Both the position numbers and the translations under genes were made by a program. DNA of 64,000 bases from the NCBI RefSeq assembly GCF_023008545.1, contig NZ_CP095397.1:2170001-2234000 (forward strand). The letters run 5' to 3'. The notes under the pieces are model-generated. The model saw only the letters and a list, made by a program, of their open reading frames with translations, searched no databases and was not told where the DNA came from. The DNA is from Natribaculum luteum. Its GTDB lineage: Archaea > Halobacteriota > Halobacteria > Halobacteriales > Natrialbaceae. Each line of letters opens with the position of its first letter. Within the stretch, counting starts at the first letter, position 1. Positions 2,915 through 16,614 of the stretch are shown piece after piece.

Positions 2915-4165
2915 ATGCGCACGCGTACCTTCTGGGCACTCGACGACGAGGACGAGGACGTCGTCGAGCGGCTGGCGGCCGGGCTCGGGGCCGACGCCGG
3001 CCGGGTCCTCGCGTACCTGCTGTTGCGTGCCGACCGCGAGCGCGAACCGGCGACGACCGTCCACCTCCGGATCGGGACCCGACTGAACCGGGCGGCTGTC
3101 GTCGACGCCGTCGAGCGACTCGAGTCCGTCGGACTGCTCGAGCGCACGCACGTTCGAGACGACGATCCCGGTCGCCCGCCGACGGCGTGGCGACCCGTCG
3201 GCGACCCCGAGTCGGCCGTCCGCTGTGCGTACGAACGCCACGCGGACGAGTTGCTCGACCGGGCTGCTGATCACGCGGGGATCGAGGATGACCGTTCCGG
3301 GTCGACGACCGGCGACCTCACCGTCGCGTTGAACTGGCGGCCGAACGGGCTCCACCTCCCCGTCTACGCCGGCGAGACGGCGGGGTGGTACGACGAGTTC
3401 GGCGTCGACGTGACCGTCGACCACTACGAGGGATCGCGACGCGCTCTCGAGCGGGTCACCGCCGGCGACGCAGACGTCGGCGTCGTCGGTGCCGCGACGG
3501 TCGCCCGCGCACGAGCGACGGACGTCCCGGTCGTTCCGATCGCGGTCCTCTACCAGCGGGCGATGACCGTCCTCTACACCGTCCGCGAGGCGTTCGGCGA
3601 GCCGCTGCGGAGCGTCGAGCAGCTGCAGGGGCGGCGGATCGGCATGCCGCCGAACTCCGAGACGCGGGTGCTCGGTCGGCTCTTCCTCTCGCAGACGGCG
3701 TTCGCCGACGACATCCGAATCGTCGACACGACCGGCGAGGAACGGGACGCGCTGCTCGCGGGCGAGGCGGACGTCGTGACCGGGTCGATCACCGATCCAC
3801 GACAGCTTGAGCGGCAGGGGAGAACGGTCGACACGCTCCCCATCACGGATCACTTCCCCATCTACGGGCCGACGGTGATCGTTCGCGAGGACGTCCTCGT
3901 CGATCGGGCCGCGGCGCTCGCGGGCTTTCTCGCCGGAACGACGGCCGGCTGGGCCGACGCGCGATGCGACCCGGAGCCGGCCACAGCGCGGGTCGCCGCG
4001 GTGGCCGACGACGAACCGGCGTCGATCCGGCGGACGTTCGAGCGGGCGGCCTCGAGATTCGGCGAGAGCGACGCCATGCGCGAACGCGGCTGGGGGTGGC
4101 AGCGCCAGGAGATGTGGGATCGACTCCGAATCGCACTCGGACAGGGGCGACTGCTCGACGAATGA
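2915..4165 (+). CDS. Winged-helix / NMT1-type substrate-binding domain fusion, probable ligand-sensing regulator
   Basis: A 416-residue two-domain protein. Residues 15-100 form a winged helix: helices around GRVLAYLLLR and TRLNRAAVVDAVERLESVGLLER, then a basic wing. Residues 112-415 are an NMT1/THI5-like periplasmic-binding fold opening with LTVALNWRPNGLHLPVYAGE and containing the typical ADVGVVGAATVARA and QGRRIGMPP segments. There is no signal peptide, so the binding domain faces the cytoplasm, as expected for a one-component transcription factor. The gene overlaps the ATPase gene by ATGA, and the downstream transporter suggests autogenous control of uptake; this is inference. The ATG at 2915 lies about 28 bases after a TTAT element, consistent with a leaderless message. 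Confidence 0.85.
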   Translation: MRTRTFWALDDEDEDVVERLAAGLGADAGRVLAYLLLRADREREPATTVHLRIGTRLNRAAVVDAVERLESVGLLERTHVRDDDPGRPPTAWRPVGDPESAVRCAYERHADELLDRAADHAGIEDDRSGSTTGDLTVALNWRPNGLHLPVYAGETAGWYDEFGVDVTVDHYEGSRRALERVTAGDADVGVVGAATVARARATDVPVVPIAVLYQRAMTVLYTVREAFGEPLRSVEQLQGRRIGMPPNSETRVLGRLFLSQTAFADDIRIVDTTGEERDALLAGEADVVTGSITDPRQLERQGRTVDTLPITDHFPIYGPTVIVREDVLVDRAAALAGFLAGTTAGWADARCDPEPATARVAAVADDEPASIRRTFERAASRFGESDAMRERGWGWQRQEMWDRLRIALGQGRLLDE

Positions 4166-4911
4166 TCGAACTCGACGACGTCACGGTGGCGTTCGAGGAC
4201 TTCACCGCGATCGCGGACGTCGACCTCTGCGTCAGCGGAGACGAGTTCGTCACCGTGGTCGGCCCGTCTGGCTGCGGAAAGACGACGCTCCTGCGGACGA
4301 TTGCCGGACTGCAGGAGCCGACGACCGGCACCGTCCGCATCGACGGACGGCCACCTGACGTCGCCCAGGCGAACGCCGACGTCGGGTTCGTCTTCCAGCA
4401 ACACACCCTGTTGCCGTGGAAGAGCGCACTCGAGAACGTGGTGTTCCTCCGGACGATGGCCGACGACCCGCCGGAGCGAGAGCGGGCGCGGGCGTTGCTC
4501 GCGTCGATGGGGCTCGAGGGGTTCGAGGACGCGCGCCCGCAGGCGCTGTCCGGCGGGATGAAACAGCGCGTCGCGATCGCCCGCGCCATCCACCTCGGCG
4601 CGGACGTCCTCCTGCTGGACGAACCGTTCGGCGAACTCGACGAGATCACCCGCGACGAACTCGGCGTCGAGATCAGAGCGCTCTGGCGGCGCGAACGGAA
4701 GACCGTCGTGTTCGTCACCCACAGCGTCCCCGAGGCGGTGTTCCTCGCCGACCGCTGCGTCGTGATGGGCGGACAGCCGGGACGGATCCAGCGGACGTTC
4801 GAGGTCGACCTGCCGACGCCGCGCGACGAGGAAGTGTTCGGCTCGAGCGCGTTCCAGCGCCAGGTCGCCGCGGTGCGACGGACGTTACACGAAACCCATG
4901 GCCACGAGTGA
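4162..4911 (+). CDS. ABC transporter ATP-binding protein, SsuB/ThiZ/TauB type
   Basis: A 249-residue nucleotide-binding subunit. Walker A is GPSGCGKTT (about residues 34-42), the Q-loop is FVFQQHTLLPW, the signature is LSGGMKQR, Walker B is VLLLDEPFGELDE and the switch His lies in VTHSV. The LLPWKSALENV motif is typical of the nitrate/sulfonate/taurine/thiamine-precursor subfamily. ATG at 4162 overlaps the stop of the preceding regulator gene by four bases; longer upstream starts would only translate a shadow of that gene. It is the only ATPase in the cluster although two permeases are present. Confidence 0.93.
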   Translation: MIELDDVTVAFEDFTAIADVDLCVSGDEFVTVVGPSGCGKTTLLRTIAGLQEPTTGTVRIDGRPPDVAQANADVGFVFQQHTLLPWKSALENVVFLRTMADDPPERERARALLASMGLEGFEDARPQALSGGMKQRVAIARAIHLGADVLLLDEPFGELDEITRDELGVEIRALWRRERKTVVFVTHSVPEAVFLADRCVVMGGQPGRIQRTFEVDLPTPRDEEVFGSSAFQRQVAAVRRTLHETHGHE

Positions 4912-5677
4912 ACGCGTTCGCGCCGCCGCGGCGGACGTGCTCTACCCGGCGAGCGCGCTCTGTGTGGGCATCGCGCTCTGGTGGACGATCGTGACGTTCG
5001 CGGACGTTCCGTCGTTCGTGTTGCCGTCGCCGCGGGCCGTCGCCGCCCAGCTCCTGGGAAATCCGACGCTGTACGCGCACAACGCCTGGAACACGCTCGA
5101 GAAGGTCGTCTACGGGGGTGCCGTGGGTGTCCTCGCTGGATTCCTGCTGGCGGCGTTCGTCGCGTACGTCCCGTGGTTTCGGCGGGCGATCTACCCCTCG
5201 CTCGTGACGGTCAGGGTGTTGCCGAAACTCGCGATCGCGCCGTTGCTTCTGATCTACCTGGGGACGGGAACGACGACGGCGACCGTGTTCGTCGCGCTCG
5301 TCACGTTCTTCCCGCTCGTGTTGAGCACGGCGGCGGGACTCGACCGGGCACCGGCGGAGCACCACGACCTGTTGCGGTCGGTAAACGCCAGCACGCTCGA
5401 GCGGATCGCGTACGTGGACGTCCCCTACGCCCTGCCGGACGTCTTCGCCGGGCTCAAGCAGTCGGTGACGCTCGCAGTCGTCGGAGCCGTCGTCGCCGAG
5501 TGGGTCGTCGCGGACGACGGCCTCGGATTCATTATCCTCCTGGGTTCGGAGAACGTCCGTCCCGAGGTCATGCTCGCGGCGCTCGTCGTCCTGTTGCTTG
5601 AGGGACTCGCCCTCTACGGCGTCGTCGTGCTCGCACAGCGCGGCGTCCTCCGGTGGGTGGGTCTCGAGTTCGAGTGA
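4898..5677 (+). CDS. ABC transporter permease, SsuC/ThiX type
   Basis: A 259-residue inner-membrane permease with about six hydrophobic segments and the BPD_transp_1 coupling region (NASTLERIAYVDVPYALPDVFAGLK), plus the N-terminal PSFVLPSPRAVAAQL signature of the nitrate/sulfonate/THI5 uptake subfamily. It overlaps the ATPase gene by 14 bases. Its stop lies four bases from the stop of the second permease gene on the other strand, so the two transcription units converge with no spacer. It would pair with the ATPase and probably the lipoprotein encoded at 6565-7692. Confidence 0.93.
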   Translation: MATSERVRAAAADVLYPASALCVGIALWWTIVTFADVPSFVLPSPRAVAAQLLGNPTLYAHNAWNTLEKVVYGGAVGVLAGFLLAAFVAYVPWFRRAIYPSLVTVRVLPKLAIAPLLLIYLGTGTTTATVFVALVTFFPLVLSTAAGLDRAPAEHHDLLRSVNASTLERIAYVDVPYALPDVFAGLKQSVTLAVVGAVVAEWVVADDGLGFIILLGSENVRPEVMLAALVVLLLEGLALYGVVVLAQRGVLRWVGLEFE

Positions 5678-5681
5678 TCCC

Positions 5682-6515
5682 TTACGCCCGCCAGAACGCG
5701 CGTTCGGCGGCGACGGGGAGAACGTAAAAGCCCACGCCGAGCCCCGAGAGGACGACGAGGGCGGCGTAGGTCTCGGCCGTTCGGAGGTACGCCGCGGTGT
5801 CGAACACACGGTAGCCCAGCCCCGCCTCGAGCGTGACGAACTCCGCGACGACGGCACCGACGACGGAAAGCGTCGCGGCGATCTTGAACCCGGCGAACAC
5901 GCTCGGCGCGGCGGCGGGGACGCGCACGCGAAGGAAGACGGCGGTCCGCGACGCGCCGACGGTGCGCGCGAGATCGAGGTACGACTCCGGCGTGCTCCGG
6001 AGTCCGTCGACCGCGGCGATCGTGATCGGGAAGACGGTCAGCGTCGTCACGAGCAGCGCCCGGGCCAGCACGCCCCGGCCGAACCAGAGAAACAGGAGCG
6101 GGGCGACGGCGATCAGGGGGGCGATGCGCAACGCGACCACGTAAGGCAACAGCGTCCGCGTCGCCGCCCGCGAGTAGGTCATCGCGAACGCGAGGACGAA
6201 CCCGACCGTCCCACCGGCGAGCAATCCGAGGCCCGCGGTGAGCCCCGTGACCGCGGCGTCCTCGAGCAGCGTCGGATACGTCTCGGCGAGCGCCTCGAGG
6301 ACCTCGAGTGGCGACGGGAGGATCAGCGTCGGCATGTCGGAGACCACGACGGCGGCGTGCCACGCGAGGAGGACGACTGCGAGGACGGCGACCGGCGGAA
6401 ACGCACGACTCGTCGCGGCGAGGCCGACGTCGACGACGCTCTGTCCCCTCCGTCGAGCGAGCGAGGGAACGTCCACGCGTGGTCGGCCGTGTCGGTCTCC
6501 GCGTCCGTCGCTCAT
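5682..6515 (-). CDS. ABC transporter permease, second paralogue
   Basis: A 277-residue permease of the same subfamily as the one ending at 5677. It has a polar N-terminus, then LPSPLEVLEALAETYP, five or six hydrophobic segments and the coupling loop RTVGASRTAVFLRVRVPAAAPSVFAGFK. The ATG at 6515 lies 49 bases after the stop of the upstream lipoprotein gene, so the two are probably co-transcribed. A longer frame upstream has no coding character. No separate ATPase accompanies it; sharing the ATPase of the convergent unit, or forming a heteromeric permease, is inferred. Confidence 0.9.
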   Translation of the reverse strand: MSDGRGDRHGRPRVDVPSLARRRGQSVVDVGLAATSRAFPPVAVLAVVLLAWHAAVVVSDMPTLILPSPLEVLEALAETYPTLLEDAAVTGLTAGLGLLAGGTVGFVLAFAMTYSRAATRTLLPYVVALRIAPLIAVAPLLFLWFGRGVLARALLVTTLTVFPITIAAVDGLRSTPESYLDLARTVGASRTAVFLRVRVPAAAPSVFAGFKIAATLSVVGAVVAEFVTLEAGLGYRVFDTAAYLRTAETYAALVVLSGLGVGFYVLPVAAERAFWRA

Positions 6516-6564
6516 CGTCTCTCGTCTCCGCGTTCCGGTCGTGACCGGGCCGTTCGAACGCGAT

Positions 6565-7692
6565 TCATTCTTCGACCAGTTCCGCGTAGTCGGCGACGTA
6601 CTCGTACTCTGCGTCGAGATACTCGTTCGTCCACACGTTGTTCGGGTCGACGTCACCCTCGAGGACGTCGCCGTCGGCCAGCACCTCGTGCGTTCGTTCC
6701 CACGGGTCGGCGGCGCTGAACCCCCAGCCGTTCTCGCGCACCGTCTCCGAGGTCATGTACTCGCCGTGCATGACGCCCCACTTGTCGGCCTGGTTCTCGC
6801 GGACCTCCTCGAGTTCTGGCTGGACGTCGACGAGGAGGTCGATCGCCTCGTCCGGGTTCTGGCTCGCCCAGACGGCACCCCTGGCCGTCGCCCGGAGGAA
6901 CGCCCGGACGGTGTTCGGGTTCGCATCGCCGAAGTCCTTCTCGGTGGCCACGAGGTGGCCGTACGACGGAATCGCGTCCGCGATCGGGAGAACGTCGATC
7001 TCGCCGCCCTGGTGTTCGGCGTCGACGACGTCGCCGAAGACGCCCCCCGCGGCGTCGATCTCGCCACCGAGCAGTTGCTGGACGGTGTCGAACCCGGTGT
7101 CGACGTACTCGACGCTCTCGAGGATCCCGTGGGAGTCGAGAAACGCCTGCGTCATCTGGCGGACCATGCCGGGGCCGCTCCCGACCGTGGCACCGTCTAA
7201 CTGCTCGGCGTCGGCGAGTTCGCCGAACTGCTTGCGACTGGCGAAGACGACGTTCGGATTCCGTTGCATGACGATGCCGACCGCGAGCGGCGAGAGTCCT
7301 CGACTGTTGACGTTGAGGATCTGGTCGCTGCTCGAGATCGCGAACTCGACGTTGCCGAGACCGGCCTGGTTGGCCGCAAAGTCGGAGCCGTCGCCGCTCT
7401 CGATCTCGACCGCCTCGAAGCCCTCCTCCTCGTAGAAGCCGTTCTCGTCGGCCGCGACGTACGGCGCGTGGAGGCCGCTTATGTTCCAGTTGAGCAACAG
7501 GGAGACGGACTCGACTTCGGGTCCGTCCGCCGTGTCGTCGCCCACGTCGTTTGGCTCGTTGTCGTTCGGCTCGCCGTCGCTCCCGAACCTCCCGGTACAG
7601 CCGGCGACGGCGACCCCACCGGCGACCGCCAGAAATCCCCGTCGCGTGTTGCGCGCCGCCCTCTCCCCACGCCCTGTGTGAATGCGTGTCAC
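6565..7692 (-). CDS. Tat-exported substrate-binding lipoprotein, NMT1/THI5 type
   Basis: A 375-residue extracellular solute receptor. The N-terminus has twin arginines (NTRRGFLAVAGG) and a lipobox ending at Cys32 (VAGC), so it is a Tat-exported, lipid-anchored protein. An acidic linker (residues 35-58) leads into the binding domain, which opens with VSLLLNWNISGLHAPYVAAD and contains QLLGGEIDAAGG and ANPNTVRAFLRATARG. A GTG at 7692 is chosen because the TATA-like element at 7724-7733 would place transcription start near 7703; the upstream ATG at 7749 lies before that promoter. This is the only member of the cluster built as a classical receptor. The ligand is unknown; thiamine-precursor pyrimidines are one known substrate class of this fold. 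Confidence 0.92.
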   Translation of the reverse strand: MTRIHTGRGERAARNTRRGFLAVAGGVAVAGCTGRFGSDGEPNDNEPNDVGDDTADGPEVESVSLLLNWNISGLHAPYVAADENGFYEEEGFEAVEIESGDGSDFAANQAGLGNVEFAISSSDQILNVNSRGLSPLAVGIVMQRNPNVVFASRKQFGELADAEQLDGATVGSGPGMVRQMTQAFLDSHGILESVEYVDTGFDTVQQLLGGEIDAAGGVFGDVVDAEHQGGEIDVLPIADAIPSYGHLVATEKDFGDANPNTVRAFLRATARGAVWASQNPDEAIDLLVDVQPELEEVRENQADKWGVMHGEYMTSETVRENGWGFSAADPWERTHEVLADGDVLEGDVDPNNVWTNEYLDAEYEYVADYAELVEE

Positions 7693-7723
7693 TCTTTCAC
7701 CGTCACCAACTGTCCACGAAGGC

Positions 7724-7733
7724 GTATAAAAAT
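7724..7733 (-). promoter_or_regulatory. TATA box for the lipoprotein gene
   Basis: Minus-strand ATTTTTATAC about 35 bases upstream of the GTG start. It separates the lipoprotein-permease unit from the upstream VOC/SBP operon and decides the start codon. Confidence 0.6.
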
Positions 7734-7782
7734 CATTTGCGAAAATCATTATAAGGAGCGGGACCGACTCCTGCCGACCGCG

Positions 7783-8214
7783 TCACACGTCGTCGTGCGT
7801 GAGCAACGGCCGGTCGCGCTCCGCTCGTGGCGGATCGTACGTGACCACCTCGAGGAGGTTGCCGTCGGGGTCGAGGAAGTAGAAGCCCTCGAACTCGCCC
7901 CAGTCGTACGGTCCCTGCTTCGGGAACTGGCCGTCGAGGTCGTCGACGAACTCGTCGTACCGCTCGCGCGAGCTCTCGAACGCGAGGTGGCCCTTGTCGA
8001 GGGGATGCTCGAGGTCCGCGGGCGACCACCCGTCGGCGCGTCCCGTCTCGACGAGCGTCACGACGGTCTCGCCGACCTCGAACATGGCATGCTCGCCCTG
8101 GAAGTCCTCCGGCGGGCGCAGCAACGACAGTCCGAGGACGTCCCGGTAGAACTCGTAGCACGCCTCGAGGTCGTCGACGTCGACGTTCACGTGGTCGACG
8201 GCGCGTGCGGTCAT
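7783..8214 (-). CDS. VOC-fold (glyoxalase/dioxygenase superfamily) enzyme
   Basis: A 143-residue vicinal-oxygen-chelate protein with paired beta-alpha-beta-beta-beta modules. His8 (VDHVNV), His76 (GHLAF) and Glu122 (NLLEVV) match metal ligands of the superfamily, which covers glyoxalases, extradiol dioxygenases and resistance proteins. The motif DPDGNLLEV is typical. The start ATG overlaps the stop of the upstream SBP-like gene by ATGA, so it is the last gene of a four-gene unit. A metal enzyme at the end of an SBP-fold operon suggests chemistry on the imported compound; the reaction is unknown. Confidence 0.88.
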   Translation of the reverse strand: MTARAVDHVNVDVDDLEACYEFYRDVLGLSLLRPPEDFQGEHAMFEVGETVVTLVETGRADGWSPADLEHPLDKGHLAFESSRERYDEFVDDLDGQFPKQGPYDWGEFEGFYFLDPDGNLLEVVTYDPPRAERDRPLLTHDDV

Positions 8215-9182
8215 CGCCACCGCCCCGCACGTTCGGCATAGTCGCGGATCGCCGGCGCGTCCGCGTCGAGGTACTCGTTCGTCCAGGCGGCGTCTGGATC
8301 GATCTCGCCCTCGAGCAGGTCGGTCTCCGCGAGCGTCTCGCCGAGCCGTCGCCAGCGGTCGCCGTCGTGGTTCCCCCACCCCGTCTCCGCGACGTGCGGG
8401 GTGACCTGGAGGTCGCCGGCGGCCGCCTCGAACTTCTCGCGTTCGATCTCCCGGCGGCGCTCGAGCGTGGCGTTGCGCGAGACCAGCGCGTCGACGGCCG
8501 CCTCCGGTTCCCGCGACGCCACAGCCCAGCCGCGGGCGGTGGCGCGGAGGAACGCCCGCACCGTCTCGGGATTATCGGCCGCGAACGACGGCTCCGTCAC
8601 GAGTGTCATCCCGTAGACGCCCAGGTGCTCCCCGATCGGGAGTTCGTCCGCCGGCCGGTCGTGGTCGCGCTCGAGTTCGAGGCCGTTGGTGACGACGCCG
8701 ACCGCCGCGTCGACGTCCCCGTCGAGCAGCTGGTGCTCGACGCGGTGGTGGGTGTGCGGGTCGACGTCCCGGAGGTCGACCTCGTCGCGAATTCCGGCGT
8801 TCTCGAGCAACTGGGCGGCGAGGATGCGCGTCTTCGTCGCCGAGGGGGCGACGGTCCGTCCGGCGAGGTCTTCCGGCTGCTCGAGCGGTTCGCCGAAGAC
8901 GTCCCGCAGCGTGTAGATCGCCGCCGGGGTCTTCGCCGTCACTGCCGCGACGGCCAGCGGCTCGAGTCCGCGGCTCCGGACGGAGAGGACGGCGCTGGCA
9001 CCTGCGAGCGCGAACGTGGCCGCACCTCGAGCGGCCTGCTCGGCGGCGAACGGAGAGCCGTGTCCCTCGACGAACCGAACCTCGAGTCCCTCCTCGTCGT
9101 AGAAACCCCGCTCGCGTGCGAGGAAGTACGGGGCCTGGAAGCCGTTGGGTTCCCAGTTGAGCTGGAAGGTGATCGATTCCAC
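8211..9182 (-). CDS. Signal-less NMT1/THI5-like SBP-fold protein (C)
   Basis: A 323-residue protein that begins directly at the first strand of the fold (VESITFQLNWEPNGFQAPYF), leaving no room for a signal peptide or lipobox. It has ERGFYDEEGLEVRFVEG, LAGRTVAPSATKTRI, DPHTHHRVEHQLLDGDVDAAVG and a C-terminal DAAWTNEYLDAD that resembles the lipoprotein's NNVWTNEYLDAE, showing close paralogy. The GTG at 9182 starts six bases after the upstream stop. It may be a cytosolic binding protein or an enzyme using this fold, as in THI5 or dihydroxyphthalate decarboxylase-like proteins. Function not assignable. Confidence 0.85.
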   Translation of the reverse strand: MESITFQLNWEPNGFQAPYFLARERGFYDEEGLEVRFVEGHGSPFAAEQAARGAATFALAGASAVLSVRSRGLEPLAVAAVTAKTPAAIYTLRDVFGEPLEQPEDLAGRTVAPSATKTRILAAQLLENAGIRDEVDLRDVDPHTHHRVEHQLLDGDVDAAVGVVTNGLELERDHDRPADELPIGEHLGVYGMTLVTEPSFAADNPETVRAFLRATARGWAVASREPEAAVDALVSRNATLERRREIEREKFEAAAGDLQVTPHVAETGWGNHDGDRWRRLGETLAETDLLEGEIDPDAAWTNEYLDADAPAIRDYAERAGRWR

Positions 9183-9187
9183 GGCGA

Positions 9188-10180
9188 TCAGACCTCCAGG
9201 CGGAACGTGTCGTCGGGGATGCGATCGACGCCGAGGGCGTCGGCTCCCGCGACCTCGAGCAGGTGGTCGAACAGCCGTTCCATCCCGGCGACCGTCTCCT
9301 CGTCCCAGTCGGCGACGACCATGTCCCGCCAGCCGTCGCGGACGGCGCGGACGACGGCGTCGTCGTCCTCGTACATCAGCCGCTCGCCGATCTCCGTCCA
9401 GATCTCGTCGTCGGTCGTGAGTCGTTCGACGGCGTCCCGGTACGCGCCCGTGAATCCGTGGACCGCCTCCCGGTTCTCCGCGAGGTAGTTCTCGCTCGTG
9501 AGGAACGTCGAGATCGGCAACTTCCGGTCGGTTTCCGAGAGGTCCTGGACGAGCCGGGACATCGGGAGCACCTCGTGGTAGTCGCCCGTCTCGGTGATCT
9601 CGGGAACGATGGGCCAGAACTGGAGGATTGCGTCGACTTCCCCGTCCCGGAGCATGCGGGTGAGTTCGACCTTCGATCCCGACTCGACCGGCATCGCCTC
9701 GTCGTCGGGGTCGAAGCCGTGGTACTCGCGACACGCCGCGCGAACCAGGATCCAGTTTTTGTCCAGCCGGCGGACGACGCCGATGCGCCGGCCCGGCAGA
9801 TCCGTCAGATCCTCGATCGGCGAGTCCGTCGGCGCGACGAGCCCCCCGACCGTCCGGCCGTACGGGTGAACGGCGACGATCGGTGCGCCCTCGGCCCGCT
9901 CGCGCGCCGTCGAGATGTAGTCGATGTCGATGAGGTCGGCCTCGCCTCCCTGTAACTTCGCCTCGACGGTCTCGACGCCGCCCTCGAGTTCGTCCGAGAC
10001 GAGTTGCACGTCGAGGTGGAAGTCGTGATCGTGGTCGTACCCGAACCGTTTGATCGTGTAGAGCATGTACCGGGGGCTGCCGTTGTGCTCGAATCGCGCT
10101 CGTAACATGGGCCGGTCTCCCGGATCGTCGTGGTGGGCGTCCAGTTCGACCTGCTGGGTCTCGAGGTCTACTGCCTCCAT
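9188..10180 (-). CDS. Signal-less SBP-fold protein (B)
   Basis: A 330-residue protein. The first 25 residues are acidic and polar (MEAVDLETQQVELDAHHDDPG), not a signal peptide. The fold follows with LRARFEHNGSPRYMLYTIKRF, LQGGEADLIDIDYISTARE, DLPGRRIGVVRR and MLRDGEVDAILQFWP. Compared with its neighbours it is divergent, with a His/Asp-rich YDHDHDFHLDVQ segment near residues 50-60. The ATG at 10180 is five bases after the upstream stop. Similarity to 4,5-dihydroxyphthalate decarboxylase-like members of the fold is possible but cannot be tested by eye. Confidence 0.82.
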   Translation of the reverse strand: MEAVDLETQQVELDAHHDDPGDRPMLRARFEHNGSPRYMLYTIKRFGYDHDHDFHLDVQLVSDELEGGVETVEAKLQGGEADLIDIDYISTARERAEGAPIVAVHPYGRTVGGLVAPTDSPIEDLTDLPGRRIGVVRRLDKNWILVRAACREYHGFDPDDEAMPVESGSKVELTRMLRDGEVDAILQFWPIVPEITETGDYHEVLPMSRLVQDLSETDRKLPISTFLTSENYLAENREAVHGFTGAYRDAVERLTTDDEIWTEIGERLMYEDDDAVVRAVRDGWRDMVVADWDEETVAGMERLFDHLLEVAGADALGVDRIPDDTFRLEV

Positions 10181-10185
10181 GGGAC

Positions 10186-11082
10186 TCACCCGAGCGAAGC
10201 GACGATGGCGTCGAGGTCTGCCTCGCCGTCGATGAGGCCGCGGTCTTTCATCCACTCGAGTTGCGCACCGAGATCGTCCCGGTCGGCGGGTTCCGGCACC
10301 TCGTAGCGCGGAACCGTCACGCGCTCGCGAAGTTTTGCCACGTCCACGTCCTCGAAGAGGTCGGGCGCGACCTCGAGGTCCTTCTCGAGCATCTCGAGGT
10401 ACTCCTCGCGGAACGCTTCCGGGTTCTCGTTGACGTCACGGGCGGCGCGGGTGTAGGCAGCGACGTACGACTCGAGGACGTCGCGGTCGACGTCGTCGCC
10501 GCCGACGATCCCCACGTGGTTCTCGAACTCGAGGATCGGCTGGAAGCCGAGGGACTCCGCGAGCGTGCTCTGTGGGTCGAGCAGCGTCACGGCGTCGACC
10601 TCGCCGTCCCGGAGCGCGCGCAGGCGATCGGTCGGCATCCCGTAGTGGACGAGGCGCACCTCCTCGGGATCGACGTGCTCCTCGAGCGCTCGCATCGCGG
10701 TGTACTCCTGGCCGGTTCGGCGGTTGACGGCGACCGGGACGTCCGCGAGGTCCGCCGGCGACTCGATCGACGTCTCCGGGTGGGTGAACACCGTGTACGG
10801 CTGGTCGGCGAAGGTGCCGTTCGCGACGACCCGCCCGTCGTCCATTCGCCACGTTCGCCTGAGGCTCTCCCACTTGCACACCGGGTAGATGTCCACCTCG
10901 TAGTCGCCGGTCAGCGTCTCCTCGGCGGGGATGTACTTTACCTCGACGGACCGCCGGTCGCGCTCGACCAGGTCGACCTCGAGTCCCTCCGCCTCGAAGT
11001 AGCCCCGTTCGGCCGCCACCCGCTGCGGGAGGACGAACGAGAACGGGAGGTGAAACAATCTGAGTGAGGCATTCTCTGTCAT
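10186..11082 (-). CDS. Signal-less SBP-fold protein (A), first gene of the operon
   Basis: A 298-residue protein opening MTENASLRLFHLPFSF, so again without export signal. Fold markers are AERGYFEAEGLEVDLVER, ADVPVAVNRRTGQEYTAMRAL, LRALRDGEVDAVTLLDPQ and a helical C-terminal half. It leads the tight unit A-B-C-VOC on the minus strand, divergent from the cupin. ATG 11082 is preferred over GTG 11100 because the CCTTTAT element at 11111-11117 predicts transcription start near 11088. No catalytic residues can be named. Confidence 0.83.
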   Translation of the reverse strand: MTENASLRLFHLPFSFVLPQRVAAERGYFEAEGLEVDLVERDRRSVEVKYIPAEETLTGDYEVDIYPVCKWESLRRTWRMDDGRVVANGTFADQPYTVFTHPETSIESPADLADVPVAVNRRTGQEYTAMRALEEHVDPEEVRLVHYGMPTDRLRALRDGEVDAVTLLDPQSTLAESLGFQPILEFENHVGIVGGDDVDRDVLESYVAAYTRAARDVNENPEAFREEYLEMLEKDLEVAPDLFEDVDVAKLRERVTVPRYEVPEPADRDDLGAQLEWMKDRGLIDGEADLDAIVASLG

Positions 11083-11175: not shown

Positions 11176-11517
11176 ATGGACAGGGTAAGTACCGGGGACA
11201 CGACGTTCGACGAGGTTGCGGAGGGAGTGTACCTCGCCGACCTGGCGACCGGGCGGCGGGCCTGCGTGAAGTACTGGCGGATCGAATCCGGCGCGACGCT
11301 ACCCGTACACCGGCACGACAACGAACAGATCGGCTACGTCCTCGACGGGACGCTGGTCGCGCTGGTCGAGGGCGAGGAGGTCACGCTCTCGCCCGGCGAC
11401 TGCTACCGGTTCCCGAGTGGGGAACGCCACGGTGCCGAGAACCGGTCCGACGAACCCGCGATCGGGATCGGCGTGCTCGCACCGCCGCGCGAGCAACCCG
11501 ACTGGCGGGAAACATAG
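11176..11517 (+). CDS. Single-domain cupin
   Basis: A 113-residue small cupin. Motif 1 is PVHRHDNEQIGYVLDG with His45, His47 and Glu50; motif 2 is PSGERHGAEN with His85; together they form a plausible metal site. Such cupins serve as oxygenases, isomerases or sensing domains. The ATG at 11176 is taken because the TATA element at 11129 puts the transcript start near 11160, excluding the GTG at 11146. It is divergent from the SBP operon and shares its promoter region, which suggests a role in the same pathway. Confidence 0.85.
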   Translation: MDRVSTGDTTFDEVAEGVYLADLATGRRACVKYWRIESGATLPVHRHDNEQIGYVLDGTLVALVEGEEVTLSPGDCYRFPSGERHGAENRSDEPAIGIGVLAPPREQPDWRET

Positions 11518-11597: not shown

Positions 11598-13760
11598 CTA
11601 AGTATCGAACCTGGCGTCGCCCGCCGTCGTCGGTTCGACCACCTCGAGTGCTCGTTCGAAGTGGGCCGCAGTGAGCACGAGGTCCTCGAGGGTTCGCGCG
11701 TCGGTGACGTACTCCTCGATGGCCGCCGTGGCGGCCTCGCGACAGATCGCCTCGACGTCCGCGCCGACGTAGCCGTCGGTCTCGCCCGCCAGTCGCTCGA
11801 GGTCGACGTCCGCGGCCAGGGGCTTGGCTGCGGTGTGGACCTCGAAGATCGCCAGCCGAGCCTCCTCGTCCGGAACCGGCACGTGGACGTGTCGGTCGAA
11901 CCGACCCGACCGGAGCAAGGCGTCGTCGAGGAGGTCGGGGCGATTGGTCGTCGCGACGACGACGACGTCCTCGAGGGTCTCGAGGCCGTCGAGTTCGGTC
12001 AGCAGTTGCGAGACGACGCGCTCGCCGACTCCTGCGTCGGCGGCGCTCCGACCGCGTTCTCCCGCCAGCGCGTCGATCTCGTCGAAGAAGACCACCGTCG
12101 GCGCGTTCTCGCGGGCCTTCGAGAAGACCTCGCGAACGCCCCGTTCTGACTCGCCGACGAACCTGTTCAGTAACTCCGGCCCCTTGATCGAGATGAAGTT
12201 CGACTGAGCCTCGTTCGCGACCGCCTTCGCGAGCAGCGTCTTGCCCGTGCCGGGCGGACCGTAGAGCAACACGCCTTTCGCGGGCGAGAGGTCGACCCGC
12301 TCGTACGCGTCGGGGTGCTCGAGGGGCCACTGGACGGTCTGGCGCAGCCGTCGTTTCACGTCCTCGAGGCCGCCGACGTCGTCCCACGAGACGTCCGGCA
12401 CCTCGACGAACACCTCGCGCAACGCCGAGGGTTCGACGCCCGTGAGCGCGTCCCGGACGTCGCGATCCGTCACCTCGAGGTCGACGTCGGCGACGTCTGC
12501 CGGCGTCACCTCGAGGTCGTCGCCGGGACGCACCCGCCGGAGCGCGCTCATCGCACTCTCCCTGACGAGGTGCTCGAGGTCGGCCCCGACGAACCCGTGG
12601 GTGATCTCGGCGTAGCGCTCGATGTCGACGTCGTCGGCCAGTGGCACGTCTCGGGTGTGGATCCGGAGGATCTCCTCGCGGCCCTGCGCGTCGGGAACGC
12701 CGACCTCCACCTCGCGGTCGAACCGGCCGGGGCGGCGCAACGCGGGATCGACGACGTGTTCCCGGTTGGTCGTTCCGACGACGGCGACGCGTTTTCGGTC
12801 TCGCACGCCGTCGAGCAGCGAGAGCAACTGGGCGACGATCCGGCTCTCGGCGTCGCCGCCGGATCCGTCCCGCGTCGGCGCGATGGAGTCGAGTTCGTCG
12901 ACGAAGACGACCGCCGGTGCGTTCGCCTCGGCCTCCGCGAAGACCTCCCGGAGGCGCTGTTCGCTCTCGCCGTAGTACTTCGACGTGATCTCCGGCCCCG
13001 AGATCGTCTGGAAGTGCGCGTCGATCTCGTTTGCGACGGCGCGGGCCATCAGCGTCTTGCCGGTCCCCGGCGGGCCGTAGAGCAGGACGCCTGAAGGTGG
13101 ATCGACGCCGAGCGCGTCGAACAGGCCCGGGTGCTGAAGAGGAAGCTCGATCAGCTCGCGCACTCGCTCGAGTTCCGCCTCGAGGCCGCCGACGTCCTCG
13201 TAGGTGACGGCGGGTCGGTCCGTCGACTCGTCTGTGAGCCCCTGTGCGGGCTCTTCGTCGACGGTGATGGCCGTCCAGTCGCGGACGACCGCGGGACCGT
13301 TCGAGTCGGTCCCCGTCACGCGGACCGGTACCTGGCGGCTCGCCTCCGCTGGCAGAGAGCCGTAGCCGAGCGCGACCGAGAGCACCTGGCCGTCGACGAC
13401 TCCTCGTCCGACGAGGGCGTCCCTGACGTGCAGGCCGACGCCTTCCTCGACGCCGACGTCCTCGGGCAGGGCGATCGTGACCCGATCCGCGTCGGTCACG
13501 TCGACGGCGTCGACTGCGACGCGGTCGTCGACCGCCACTCCGAGGTTCCGACGGAGTCGCTCCGGGAGCCGGACGTGACCGCGTTCGGCGTCGCCGGTGC
13601 CGACCCTCGCGACGGCCCGTCGATCGTCGCTCTCGAGGAGCACCCAGTCGCCGACCTCGACCCCCAGTTCCCGTCTCGCGTCGCGATCGAGGACGACCGC
13701 TCCCTCGTCGACCCGTCCTCGTCCGGGCGTGACACCAAGTTCCAGGCTATTAGTTTTCAC
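11598..13760 (-). CDS. CDC48/VCP-family AAA ATPase
   Basis: A 720-residue double-AAA unfoldase. The N-terminal double-psi beta-barrel plus 4-beta domain (residues 1-185; VTPGRGRVDEGAVVLDRDARRE) precedes D1 (Walker A GPPGTGKTLMARAVANE; Walker B VVFVDELDS) and D2 (GPPGTGKTLLAKAVANE; VVFFDEIDA). In archaea this hexamer extracts and unfolds proteins for degradation. Haloarchaea usually carry several paralogues; this one has a short acidic C-terminus without an HbYX tail. The start ATG 13760 begins MKTNSLELGV at the first barrel strand. Confidence 0.95.
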   Translation of the reverse strand: MKTNSLELGVTPGRGRVDEGAVVLDRDARRELGVEVGDWVLLESDDRRAVARVGTGDAERGHVRLPERLRRNLGVAVDDRVAVDAVDVTDADRVTIALPEDVGVEEGVGLHVRDALVGRGVVDGQVLSVALGYGSLPAEASRQVPVRVTGTDSNGPAVVRDWTAITVDEEPAQGLTDESTDRPAVTYEDVGGLEAELERVRELIELPLQHPGLFDALGVDPPSGVLLYGPPGTGKTLMARAVANEIDAHFQTISGPEITSKYYGESEQRLREVFAEAEANAPAVVFVDELDSIAPTRDGSGGDAESRIVAQLLSLLDGVRDRKRVAVVGTTNREHVVDPALRRPGRFDREVEVGVPDAQGREEILRIHTRDVPLADDVDIERYAEITHGFVGADLEHLVRESAMSALRRVRPGDDLEVTPADVADVDLEVTDRDVRDALTGVEPSALREVFVEVPDVSWDDVGGLEDVKRRLRQTVQWPLEHPDAYERVDLSPAKGVLLYGPPGTGKTLLAKAVANEAQSNFISIKGPELLNRFVGESERGVREVFSKARENAPTVVFFDEIDALAGERGRSAADAGVGERVVSQLLTELDGLETLEDVVVVATTNRPDLLDDALLRSGRFDRHVHVPVPDEEARLAIFEVHTAAKPLAADVDLERLAGETDGYVGADVEAICREAATAAIEEYVTDARTLEDLVLTAAHFERALEVVEPTTAGDARFDT

Positions 13761-13980: not shown

Positions 13981-14889
13981 ATGACTAACACACAGATAAC
14001 AGACGAAGCTCAACGGCAGCTGGTCCGGAACCTCGGGATGAGCCAGGTTCCGGAAGAGGGCCGGTTGACGCTCGAGCGAATTCGGGAGTCGGTAGACGCC
14101 GAGACCGACCCCGAGTTCGCTTCGATGGGGGTGTCGATCCGACGTGACCTCTCGGGCAAACTCGACGAGTCGTTGCTCGAGGAGGAACTCGGGAAGCTGG
14201 CGACGCAGATCGAACGGCTTCCCGATGTCCGCGAGGCGGGGATCCCGGACGGTGAGACGGAGCCAGAACAGTTGTATCGCGAACTCGTCGCTCCGGGCTG
14301 GCGCGTCTACGACCATCTCGTGGACGTCGGATTCTTCGAGAGCGTCGAAGACAGCCTGCCGCGGTTCACACCGGAACACATCGAACACACTGCACACGAG
14401 CTGATCCGGACGGAGCCGCTTACGTCCGAACTCTCGACGATCGGGTTCGACGAGCGCGAGAAGCTGGTGCTGGTGATGAACGTCGTGAACAACAACACGC
14501 GACTGGCGCGGTGGGTACCGACGAAGGAGATTCCGGAGGAGGTCGAGTTCGACGTCGAGCACGTGCCGCCACTTCACCAGCGGGCCATGGGGGGTGCGTT
14601 GCTGTGGATCAACGCGCTCGACGTCCACCTCTGGCAAAATCGGATCCTCGTCACCGACGAGATCCTCGACGACGGCTACTCGGACGTCAAGGCGATGCTC
14701 GGCGGGCTGTACGCGATGACGAAGGCCGCACTCGACGTCGCCGAGGACGGACCGCTGACCGACGCACAGCTGACCGCCGCGCTGACCGCCAGTGCGGCGA
14801 TCACGATCGTCAACCAGGAAGAGATCTGCAAGGACGTCTTCTGGATCACGGAAGACATGCGTGCGCCGAGCAAGGCGCGACCGAGGTGA
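13981..14889 (+). CDS. Unknown protein linked to the quinoprotein gene
   Basis: A 302-residue soluble, helix-rich, acidic protein with no recognised domain. It contains FDEREKLVLVMNVVNNNTR, a conserved-looking HQRAMGGALLWINALDVHLWQN segment near residues 200-220 and an Ala-rich helical tail. No Cys-rich metal motif, signal peptide or membrane segment is visible. It precedes the PQQ-type dehydrogenase gene by seven bases, so the two are certainly co-transcribed; a partner, chaperone or electron acceptor role is possible but unsupported by motif. Confidence 0.75.
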   Translation: MTNTQITDEAQRQLVRNLGMSQVPEEGRLTLERIRESVDAETDPEFASMGVSIRRDLSGKLDESLLEEELGKLATQIERLPDVREAGIPDGETEPEQLYRELVAPGWRVYDHLVDVGFFESVEDSLPRFTPEHIEHTAHELIRTEPLTSELSTIGFDEREKLVLVMNVVNNNTRLARWVPTKEIPEEVEFDVEHVPPLHQRAMGGALLWINALDVHLWQNRILVTDEILDDGYSDVKAMLGGLYAMTKAALDVAEDGPLTDAQLTAALTASAAITIVNQEEICKDVFWITEDMRAPSKARPR

Positions 14890-14895
14890 CAACCA

Positions 14896-16614
14896 ATGGG
14901 AATCGAAGAAGACAGGGCCGTCAAGGCCGCACAGGACACGATCGTACGGGAAACAGACCAGGGGTATCGGGTGCTCGGCTCGCCCGACGAGTCGGTGACA
15001 CACCAGCACGACGTCGACCGGATTCCGGAGGTGGACGTCACCCAGGAGATGATCCTCGAGTCGGGTGAGAACCCGGAAGCGTGGCTCACCTACGGGGGGA
15101 ACTACGAACAGCACCGCTGTACGACCGCCGACGTCATCACCCCCGACAACGTCGCCGACCTCGAACTCGAGTACGTGATGCACGTCGGTGCCGGCTCGAG
15201 CATGGAGGGGACGCCGCTGATCGTCCCGGGCGATCCGCCGGTGATGTACCAGTCGAACGGGCCGAACCACGTGAAAGCTATCGACGCCCGCGAGGGCGAG
15301 ACGCTCTGGAGTTACACCTACGCGGTTCCCTCCGACGTGGTGCTTTGCTGTGACGACAACAACCGCGGCGTCGCCGTCCTCGGCGACAAGGTGTTCATGA
15401 CGACGCTCGACTCGGGCGTCGTTGCACTGAACCGCTACACCGGCGAGGAGGAGTGGTACACGAGCACCGCCGACCACGAGGAAGGCTACTCGGCGACGTG
15501 GGCACCCGTCGTCTACGACGGCAAGCTGTTCACCGGCAGCGCCGGCGGCGAGTACGGCGTTCGCGGCTTCCACACCGCGCTCGACACCGAAACCGGCGAA
15601 CAGCTCTGGCACACGTGGACCTCGCCCGAAGAGGAGTGGGTCGGCGACAGCATCGAGCAGTCGTGTGCGACGAACTGGATGACCGCGACGATCGACGCCG
15701 AGAAGGGGCGGCTGTACCTCCCCGTGGGCAACCCCGGCCCCGACTTCGACGGCTCCGTCCGTCCAGGACCGAACCGCAATAGCGCCGGGACGCTGGCGAT
15801 GGACCTCGAGACGGGCGAACGCCTGTGGACCCACCAGGAGTCGCCACACGACGTCTGGGACTACGACTCGGCCGCACCGCGTATCCTGATCCGCGACCTC
15901 GAGATCGAACACCGCGACATGACCACGGACGTCGTCGTCTCGGCGGGGAAGACGGCCTGGATCTATACGATGGACTCCGACACCGGCGAGCTCATCGAGC
16001 GCAGCGAACCGGGCGTCCAGCAGCTGAACATGTTCAAGATGATCCCGCACATCGACGAGGGCCGGCGCATGGCGTTCATGCCCGGCGCGATGGGCGGCAA
16101 CGACTGGCAGCCGCCGGCCTGGAACCCCGAAACCGGCCTGGCGTACTTCAAGATGAACAACTCGCCACAGGAAGCCTGGTGGCGCTTCGAGGAGTACGAA
16201 GAGGGCAAGAAGTACTGGGGTGGCATCCTGGAAGACGAGACCGAGGCCGTCCCCGAGGGCTACAACGACAAGATCAGCGCCATCGTCGCGGTCGATCCGG
16301 AGACGGGCCAGCGCGTCTGGCGCGACTGGATCGAGGGCAGTGCGTACCTGTGGGGTGGCCTGCTGACGACCACGACGGGACTCACCTTCGGTGGCACGCA
16401 GAACGGCAAATTCATCGCGTACGACGCCGAAACCGGTGACCACCTCTGGGAGTACGACGTCGGCGAGGTGTCGATCGCGGGTAGTCCGATGAGCTGGTAC
16501 GACCCCGAGACCGAAAAGCAGTACGTCGCCATCCAGATCGGCGGAAGTGGCTGGCTGCGCCGCGGGACCGGCGGTCGCGACGACCGACTCGCCGTCTTCT
16601 CGATGGCAGCCTGA
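14896..16614 (+). CDS. PQQ-type quinoprotein dehydrogenase with lanthanide-type metal signature, no signal peptide
   Basis: A 572-residue eight-bladed propeller of the methanol/alcohol dehydrogenase type. Hallmarks are the vicinal Cys151-Cys152 (VVLCCDDNNRGVA), Glu104 in MEGTPLIV, Glu219 in GGEYGVRG, Asn279 in GNPGPDF and the catalytic Asp322 in PHDVWDYDSA. Asp324, two residues after the catalytic Asp, is the position that in XoxF-type enzymes coordinates a lanthanide and is Ala in calcium enzymes. Lys352 replaces the Arg of methanol dehydrogenases, as in many alcohol dehydrogenases. Blades end in DAETGDHLWEYD-like repeats. The N-terminus (MGIEEDRAVKAAQDT) is not a signal peptide although family members are normally exported. 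Substrate and whether PQQ is made or imported are unknown. Confidence 0.9.
   Translation: MGIEEDRAVKAAQDTIVRETDQGYRVLGSPDESVTHQHDVDRIPEVDVTQEMILESGENPEAWLTYGGNYEQHRCTTADVITPDNVADLELEYVMHVGAGSSMEGTPLIVPGDPPVMYQSNGPNHVKAIDAREGETLWSYTYAVPSDVVLCCDDNNRGVAVLGDKVFMTTLDSGVVALNRYTGEEEWYTSTADHEEGYSATWAPVVYDGKLFTGSAGGEYGVRGFHTALDTETGEQLWHTWTSPEEEWVGDSIEQSCATNWMTATIDAEKGRLYLPVGNPGPDFDGSVRPGPNRNSAGTLAMDLETGERLWTHQESPHDVWDYDSAAPRILIRDLEIEHRDMTTDVVVSAGKTAWIYTMDSDTGELIERSEPGVQQLNMFKMIPHIDEGRRMAFMPGAMGGNDWQPPAWNPETGLAYFKMNNSPQEAWWRFEEYEEGKKYWGGILEDETEAVPEGYNDKISAIVAVDPETGQRVWRDWIEGSAYLWGGLLTTTTGLTFGGTQNGKFIAYDAETGDHLWEYDVGEVSIAGSPMSWYDPETEKQYVAIQIGGSGWLRRGTGGRDDRLAVFSMAA

Follow-up and report, generated by a model that had tools for sequence, protein, structure and literature searches.

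Substrate-binding proteins (SBPs) of ABC importers carry a signal peptide or lipobox and belong with a cognate permease and ATPase. Three tandem genes of Natribaculum luteum, here called A, B and C, encode proteins of the same fold that have neither, which raises the question of what such proteins do inside the cell. The preliminary description of the window (the whole 64,000-nucleotide stretch of DNA analysed) proposed that they are cytosolic enzymes or ligand carriers handing over to an adjoining VOC-fold protein. All three are currently annotated merely as 'ABC transporter substrate-binding protein', and our analysis offers functional leads for these genes. They belong to a block of five:

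11176-11517, + strand: cupin, divergent single-domain (PF07883; metal-type ligands)
10186-11082, - strand: A, signal-less SBP-fold protein, 298 aa (PF09084, AF2 model)
9188-10180, - strand: B, signal-less PqqT homolog, 330 aa (phmmer and bacterial neighbourhoods)
8211-9182, - strand: C, signal-less SBP-fold protein, 323 aa (42% identity to the external SBP at 6565-7749)
7783-8214, - strand: VOC-fold protein (PF00903; metal triad H8/H76/E122)

The cupin-A-B-C-VOC block

Read directly from the sequence, A extends from an ATG at 11082 to a stop at 10186-10188, B from an ATG at 10180 to a stop at 9188-9190, and C from a GTG at 9182 to a stop at 8211-8213. The tight packing described earlier is confirmed: five bases separate A from B (10181-10185) and B from C (9183-9187), and the ATG of the VOC gene (8212-8214) overlaps the TGA of C in an ATGA. 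The SBP fold ascribed to all three proteins is likewise borne out by matches to PF09084 (NMT1/THI5) above the Pfam cut-off. That they start at the first strand of this fold is true for A and C but not for B, where about 25 hydrophilic residues precede it.

The claimed absence of signal peptides was upheld by comparison of start sites in about 20 haloarchaeal genomes, where neither a hydrophobic stretch nor a Tat motif occurs at any annotated start of A, B or C; a lipobox is present in none of the three. In-frame stops lie 5-9 codons upstream of the start of A in many genomes, directly upstream (0 codons) of B in genome L043, and 1-2 codons upstream of C in genomes L040 and L055. They rule out the upstream start adding a signal that had been considered earlier, and they set B (upstream stops in several genomes) apart from the PqqT family, of which an exported location is a trait. 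These comparisons support a predicted cytosolic location of A, B and C, and also the broad alternative that they may be cytosolic enzymes or ligand carriers.

The set cupin-A-B-C-VOC recurs in about 35 of 37 haloarchaeal loci, and the grouping is therefore not due to chance. The cupin is present in all 37, and its H45, H47, Q51 and H85, ligands of metal type, are invariant in an alignment of 17 sequences. H8, H76 and E122 of the VOC protein are invariant among 18 aligned sequences, leaving its 2-His-1-Glu metal site intact. The proposed link to this protein thus stands as far as membership of the conserved set is concerned, but not as a handing over along the operon, since in many genomes the VOC gene adjoins the cupin on the other side. 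No description of this module was found in the literature searched, the search not being exhaustive.

B, PqqT and a signal-less PQQ dehydrogenase

Four further features, one within B and three beyond the cupin, bear on the function of the block:

9752-9763, - strand: B motif D140-K141-N142-W143; K141 aligns with K142 of PqqT
11598-13760, - strand: CDC48-family AAA ATPase, recurrently adjoining the dehydrogenase pair
13981-14889, + strand: all-helical protein, 302 aa, coupled to the dehydrogenase gene, without known-family match
14896-16614, + strand: PQQ dehydrogenase, PedH-like, signal-less (C151-C152, E219, W261, N279, D322, D324)

What is known of PQQ handling comes from Gram-negative bacteria; PqqT is the periplasmic PQQ-binding SBP of Methylobacterium extorquens (PDB IDs: 9b1u, 9b1v and 9ooz). 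B matches 9b1u/9b1v, recognised as PqqT via 9B1V and the PDB titles, over about 290 residues (B residues 39-325; phmmer E 1.8e-26), and its next solved match has an E of 2e-5. The D-K-N-W motif is invariant in 21 B sequences, and D-K-(N/S)-W is common to B, PqqT and four alphaproteobacterial SBPs. According to the paper on the PqqT structure, the lysine aligned with K141 is reportedly in contact with PQQ. The contact of K142 with PQQ is given in PMC12828617, and PMC12124388 is cited in support of a cofactor role. The two proteins are thus homologous, share the motif with its PQQ-contacting lysine, and are both associated with PQQ dehydrogenases. They differ in that B is archaeal, signal-less and in tandem with two further SBP-fold proteins, in an operon without dedicated permease or ATPase. 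The N-terminal loop differs too, FEHNGSPRY in B versus LKFGTVNWE in bacterial homologs. Four bacterial homologs of B carry a signal peptide; a PQQ-ADH gene lies within about 9 kb of seven of the eight homologs examined, and pqqC is found on three of four plasmids bearing such a homolog together with PQQ-ADH. Viral relatives of B were not found. We infer that the cytosolic ligand of B would be PQQ or a closely similar compound.

Dehydrogenases of the PedH/XoxF type are generally regarded as periplasmic. The window enzyme, whose best solved match is PedH, has all the PQQ ligands of these lanthanide PQQ alcohol dehydrogenases and their extra aspartate as well (D324, two residues past the catalytic D322); C151, C152, E219, W261, N279, D322 and D324 are invariant in 20 of 20 sequences. 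It differs from them in being archaeal, signal-less (an in-frame stop lies two codons upstream in most orthologs) and coupled to the all-helical partner. Like A, B and C, it is predicted to act inside the cell. A cytochrome c partner gene was not noticed beside it. The model of the 302-aa partner showed no clear match to a known fold, and an assignment as PqqC/TenA-like oxidase is unsupported (AF2 pLDDT 88, best Z 6, TenA E 2.6).

The dehydrogenase occurs in 35 of 37 genomes with B and in 19 of 256 without it (Fisher 4e-29, uncorrected for relatedness). One of the two exceptions with B holds a dehydrogenase fragment of 76% identity (35-36 of 37 in all); in the complete genome G051, A-B-C are present and the dehydrogenase was not found. 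Since A-B-C are missing from 19 genomes that have the dehydrogenase, not every such enzyme needs the trio; class II dehydrogenases lack the Cys pair, which was also counted against a cofactor role. The dehydrogenase gene lies within about 9 kb of 12 of the 37 blocks and not so in the other 25. Conservation of A, B and C is close to that of the dehydrogenase and above that of the external paralog (82, 84 and 79% versus 85 and 66% in genome G205).

Relatives of A and C and the adjoining importer

On the other side of the block lie genes of an ABC importer:

6565-7749, - strand: Tat lipoprotein, the external SBP of the ABC importer linked to the dehydrogenase; C is its paralog
5682-6656, - strand: ABC permease (PF00528; true start probably internal)
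4898-5677, + strand: second ABC permease (PF00528)
4165-4911, + strand: ABC ATPase, TauB/SsuB type
2915-4165, + strand: HTH-like N-terminal domain and C-like SBP domain (Pfam: SBP part only; HTH by reading the sequence)

The external SBP, of which C is a signal-less paralog, bears the Tat lipobox RRGFLAVAGGVAVAGC. It accompanies this dehydrogenase across the order (34 of 36 versus 20 of 257, Fisher 5e-28, the genes being physically linked). The HTH-SBP fusion is likely an intracellular ligand-sensing regulator.

By sequence, the nearest solved structures to C are importer SBPs of the ThiY type, which have the same fold (E ~1e-14). C differs from ThiY/NMT1-type SBPs in being cytosolic and in an invariant K117 and a THHR insertion that are peculiar to it. 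These pocket residues, together with H41, are missing from the external paralog, which weakens the idea that C and the importer simply share a ligand; taken with the loop difference in B, they suggest that ligands may differ or that chemistry may occur. The kinship with THI5-type enzymes raised earlier found no support. The THI5/THI13 HMP-P synthase has a cytosolic SBP fold in common with C, but its K62, H66 and CCCFC motif (C195-199) have no equivalents there: Ala60 and Ala64, both invariant in the C alignment, take the places of K62 and H66, and CCCFC is absent from C and from the alignment. THI5-type catalysis was therefore rejected. As to the Pht5-like dihydroxyphthalate decarboxylases also raised earlier, decarboxylase models in NCBIfam and Pfam gave no match.

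A, with 63-84% identity among 20 haloarchaea, adopts the SBP fold in its AF2 model (pLDDT 83; Z 18-22 to SsuA, ThiY and PqqT). MqnA/MqnD and DszB are cytosolic SBP-fold enzymes whose fold resembles that of A, but sequence similarity to them was not found at E up to 0.1; the match to DszB (active site Cys27/His60/Arg70) is one of fold and concerns A only (Z 14.5). PqqT is not the specifically closest relative of either A or C by sequence. A scan of 84,980 species for conserved motifs of A returned haloarchaea only, but more remote signal-less proteins resembling A (26-32%) are encoded in alphaproteobacteria and by a second Halococcus gene, in contexts without a clear functional pointer.

Possible roles of the block

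We propose, with a probability only just above one half (about 0.52), that A, B and C are SBP-derived cytosolic ligand-binding proteins which, with the VOC protein and the cupin, may serve the quinone cofactor of a cytosolic quinoprotein. We favour this because of the homology of B to PqqT, its retained lysine, the co-occurrence with the dehydrogenase, the lack of signals and the paralogy to an importer SBP. A, B and C would descend from SBPs of ABC importers. Ligand uptake would fall to the external SBP with the ABC genes, and ligand sensing to the HTH-SBP fusion; the trio would capture and protect the cofactor and hand it on to the apo-dehydrogenase. For A and C, the ligand might be this cofactor too, one of its precursors or a partner ligand, and the VOC protein and cupin might modify or repair the cofactor. 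A PQQ module in haloarchaea poses a testable question, namely by which means PQQ, and perhaps lanthanides, are acquired, transported and put to use in the archaeal cytosol.

Alternatively, and in our judgement unlikely, the three could be SBP-fold enzymes, for which MqnA/MqnD, THI5 or DszB are models in principle. Together with the VOC protein and cupin they would then synthesise PQQ or a PQQ-like quinone, or remodel it, through a non-canonical pathway in the cytosol. PqqC was found in none of 293 genomes by a search that detected it on three of four bacterial plasmids as positive control, and PqqB and PqqE stayed below cut-off in the ten genomes checked. Moreover, 17 dehydrogenase genomes have A-B-C and lack the orthologous importer SBP, at least one of the two being present in 51 of 54. 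The two metal-type oxygenase folds accompanying the trio, and the enzyme-like conservation with C-specific invariant His and Lys, would also fit synthesis. However, neither a peptide precursor nor a radical SAM protein nor any other step of quinone building can be recognised in the block, B retains its binding-protein signature, other importers may exist where orthologous ones are missing, and the trade-off between B and the importer is weak (Fisher p 0.02, uncorrected for phylogeny). Decidedly doubtful is a bolder form, in which the block would be an undescribed cytosolic pathway whose SBP-fold lyases or transferases and two metal oxygenase-type proteins make PQQ or a new PQQ-like cofactor; if true, it would supply a lanthanide-type quinoprotein inside archaeal cells without PqqB, PqqC and PqqE.

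It is quite improbable that what A, B and C bind or convert is a substrate or product of the pathway (alcohol-derived or heteroaromatic) and not the cofactor, the VOC protein and cupin then being catabolic. Genes for aldehyde ferredoxin oxidoreductase, aldehyde dehydrogenase and xanthine-dehydrogenase-like proteins do recur nearby, the best solved matches of C are pyrimidine-binding proteins, and its pocket is unlike that of the importer paralog; against this reading stand the specific PqqT kinship of B, with its PQQ-contacting lysine, and the bacterial homologs' recurring position beside PQQ-ADH genes. That the three are ordinary importer SBPs with an unrecognised export route or no transporter partner, as the NMT1/SsuA-like label in Pfam and NCBIfam and the adjoining ABC transporter might suggest, is highly improbable, given that the adjoining set owns a Tat lipoprotein SBP and is absent beside most A-B-C blocks, that stops ahead of the start codons leave no room for a signal in many genomes, and that Tat motif and lipobox occur in none. 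The homology of B to PqqT and the association of the set with a signal-less PQQ dehydrogenase are additions to the preliminary description.

The A-B-C block and its signal-less proteins

The five-gene set composed of a cupin gene, three tandem SBP-fold genes (A, B and C) and a metal-site VOC-fold gene most likely serves a cytosolic quinoprotein by handling its quinone cofactor. The window DNA is haloarchaeal, with G208, of the same genus by GTDB, as the closest relative compared. A, B, C and VOC were read directly from the DNA:

10186-11082, minus strand, A, SBP-like
9188-10180, minus strand, B, SBP-like
8211-9182, minus strand, C, SBP-like
7783-8214, minus strand, VOC gene
start at 11176, divergent from A-B-C, cupin gene

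A/B and B/C are each separated by 5 bases and C overlaps VOC by ATGA, which bears out the gene anatomy proposed in the preliminary description. Its claim that A, B and C are signal-less also stands. Start sites were compared in about 20 haloarchaea. In many genomes an in-frame stop precedes the start of A by just 5-9 codons; for B the stop comes immediately before the start in L043, and for C it is 1-2 codons ahead of it in L040 and L055. These stops and the hydrophilic N-termini, where no Tat motif was seen, rule out the upstream starts adding a signal peptide that the preliminary description named as its refutation. The contrast to the external SBP of an ABC importer (6565-7749) is real, because this protein and its orthologs carry Tat/lipobox signals. 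Distant A-like SBP-fold proteins without signal peptide at their start are present in alphaproteobacteria and as a second Halococcus gene (L087 7959-8870; L088 5956-6870; L089 6998-7915), which suggests that cytosolic proteins of the SBP fold form a broader family.

The 37 surveyed loci, from named genomes, were chosen for encoding A, and all have the cupin; B is found in 36, and C and VOC in 35 each, some of the missing members being accounted for by contig ends. VOC lies either at the operon end or next to the cupin. All 18 VOC sequences compared share the H8/H76/E122 triad, and the cupin retains H45, H47, Q51 and H85 in 17, so both are predicted to be active metal proteins. In Haloplanus, B occurs as a tandem duplicate (L053 7047-9177; L147, L149).

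Relationship of B to PqqT

A, B and C each exceed the Pfam cut-off for NMT1/THI5. Kinship with THI5 as an enzyme, a comparison raised earlier, is not supported: at the positions of THI5 K62 and H66, C has the invariant residues Ala60 and Ala64, and it also lacks the CCCFC motif. A has no close relative among solved structures; its AF2 model adopts a standard SBP fold, nearest to SsuA, ThiY and PqqT (Z 18-22), with enzymes such as THI5, MqnD and DszB ranking below.

By sequence, B is a PqqT homolog. Its phmmer matches among solved structures are 9b1u, 9b1v and 9ooz at about 2e-26 (by their PDB titles, PqqT with PQQ, with PQQ and Gd3+, and a Y161W variant), followed by the next match at 2e-5. 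The Kd of PqqT for PQQ is 50 nM (PMC12124388). Residue numbering of 9b1u is offset by 27 from its chain, and chain residue 142 is Ala; PqqT K142 is therefore chain K115. This residue, reportedly hydrogen-bonded to PQQ, aligns with K141 in the D-K-N-W motif of B, and the 21 B proteins from haloarchaea share D140, K141 and W143 without exception with PqqT and with four homologs from alphaproteobacteria. Signal peptides, absent from haloarchaeal B, are found in the bacterial homologs. Seven of the eight examined (Tateyamaria, Phaeobacter, Azospirillum, Pseudosulfitobacter, two Sinorhizobium and Deinococcus, the last not showing the DK(N/S)W motif) have a gene for a PQQ alcohol dehydrogenase no more than about 9 kb away; none was found within this distance in Paroceanicella.

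Association with a quinoprotein dehydrogenase

Three further genes of the window belong to this context:

14896-16614, quinoprotein dehydrogenase, best solved match 6zcv
13981-14889, 302-aa all-helical protein, tightly upstream of the dehydrogenase gene
11598-13760, CDC48-family AAA ATPase, recurrent next to this dehydrogenase pair

Among 293 genomes of the order, dehydrogenase matches (E < 1e-40) occur in 35 of 37 B-positive genomes, whereas only 19 of 256 B-negative ones have them (Fisher 4e-29, a p-value that ignores shared ancestry). Of the two exceptions, the G081 assembly is 71% complete and contains a dehydrogenase fragment 76% identical; G051 is a true one, the dehydrogenase not being found there. 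The block and the dehydrogenase are no more than about 9 kb apart in 12 of the 37 named loci. A, B and C, 63-85% identical between genera, are conserved about as well as the dehydrogenase and better than the external SBP.

The match 6zcv is PedH, a lanthanide-dependent enzyme. All 20 of 20 orthologs retain the PQQ/metal residues C151-C152, E219, W261, N279 and D322, together with the lanthanide-diagnostic D324, from which alone lanthanide use is inferred. The dehydrogenase has no signal peptide, because an in-frame stop sits 2 codons upstream of its start in most orthologs. The helical protein accompanies it across the order, directly preceding it in nearly every genome, and is a possible obligate partner or maturase; it has no Pfam family, and its AF2 model (pLDDT 88) gave no convincing fold match. 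By analogy, the CDC48-family ATPase may play the role of MoxR ATPases for bacterial methanol dehydrogenases. Where the block and the dehydrogenase lie close together, they are often accompanied by a CDC48 ATPase gene and by genes for aldehyde ferredoxin oxidoreductase, DUF4242, a methyltransferase and a sodium:calcium antiporter. Recurrence of the oxidoreductase near the block (L044, L052, L060, L091) suggests an alcohol-to-acid oxidation pathway.

Importer, cofactor source and the role of the block

C is 42% identical to the external SBP over its full length and 32% identical to the SBP part of an HTH-SBP fusion:

2915-4165, HTH-SBP fusion, predicted HTH domain and C-like SBP domain

Orthologs of the fusion recur beside importer and dehydrogenase genes, and it looks like a one-component regulator sensing the imported ligand. 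The external SBP has orthologs in 34 of the 54 dehydrogenase-bearing genomes, against just 2 other genomes (Fisher 5e-28, again ignoring shared ancestry). In most of the loci inspected, some of them from genomes that lack A-B-C, these orthologs are found close to the dehydrogenase pair; 51 of the 54 carry at least one of A-B-C and the importer SBP. Because H41, K117, a THHR insertion, H150 and N166, all invariant in C, are missing from the importer SBP, the two may differ in ligand or chemistry.

PqqC had no match above cut-off in any of the 293 genomes (the model matched in 3/4 bacterial plasmids used as positive control), and PqqE and PqqB stayed below cut-off in ten genomes tested, with a clear PqqB positive control. 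It follows that these archaea take up PQQ from outside, produce it or an analogue by a different route, or rely on a different cofactor. In the proposed handling, B would be the binder of PQQ or of a close analogue, the ligand of A and C would be the cofactor, a precursor or a partner ligand, and VOC and cupin would act chemically on the cofactor. That the block instead serves cofactor biosynthesis is kept alive by the missing canonical PQQ genes, the two metal-oxygenase-type companions (VOC and cupin) and the special residues of C; carriage or insertion is favoured, because B retains the binding signature.

Other haloarchaea possess PQQ dehydrogenases with an N-terminal plastocyanin-like fusion (L165, 6230 onward; L172, 5250 onward), located beside the same type of importer and apparently likewise without signal peptide.
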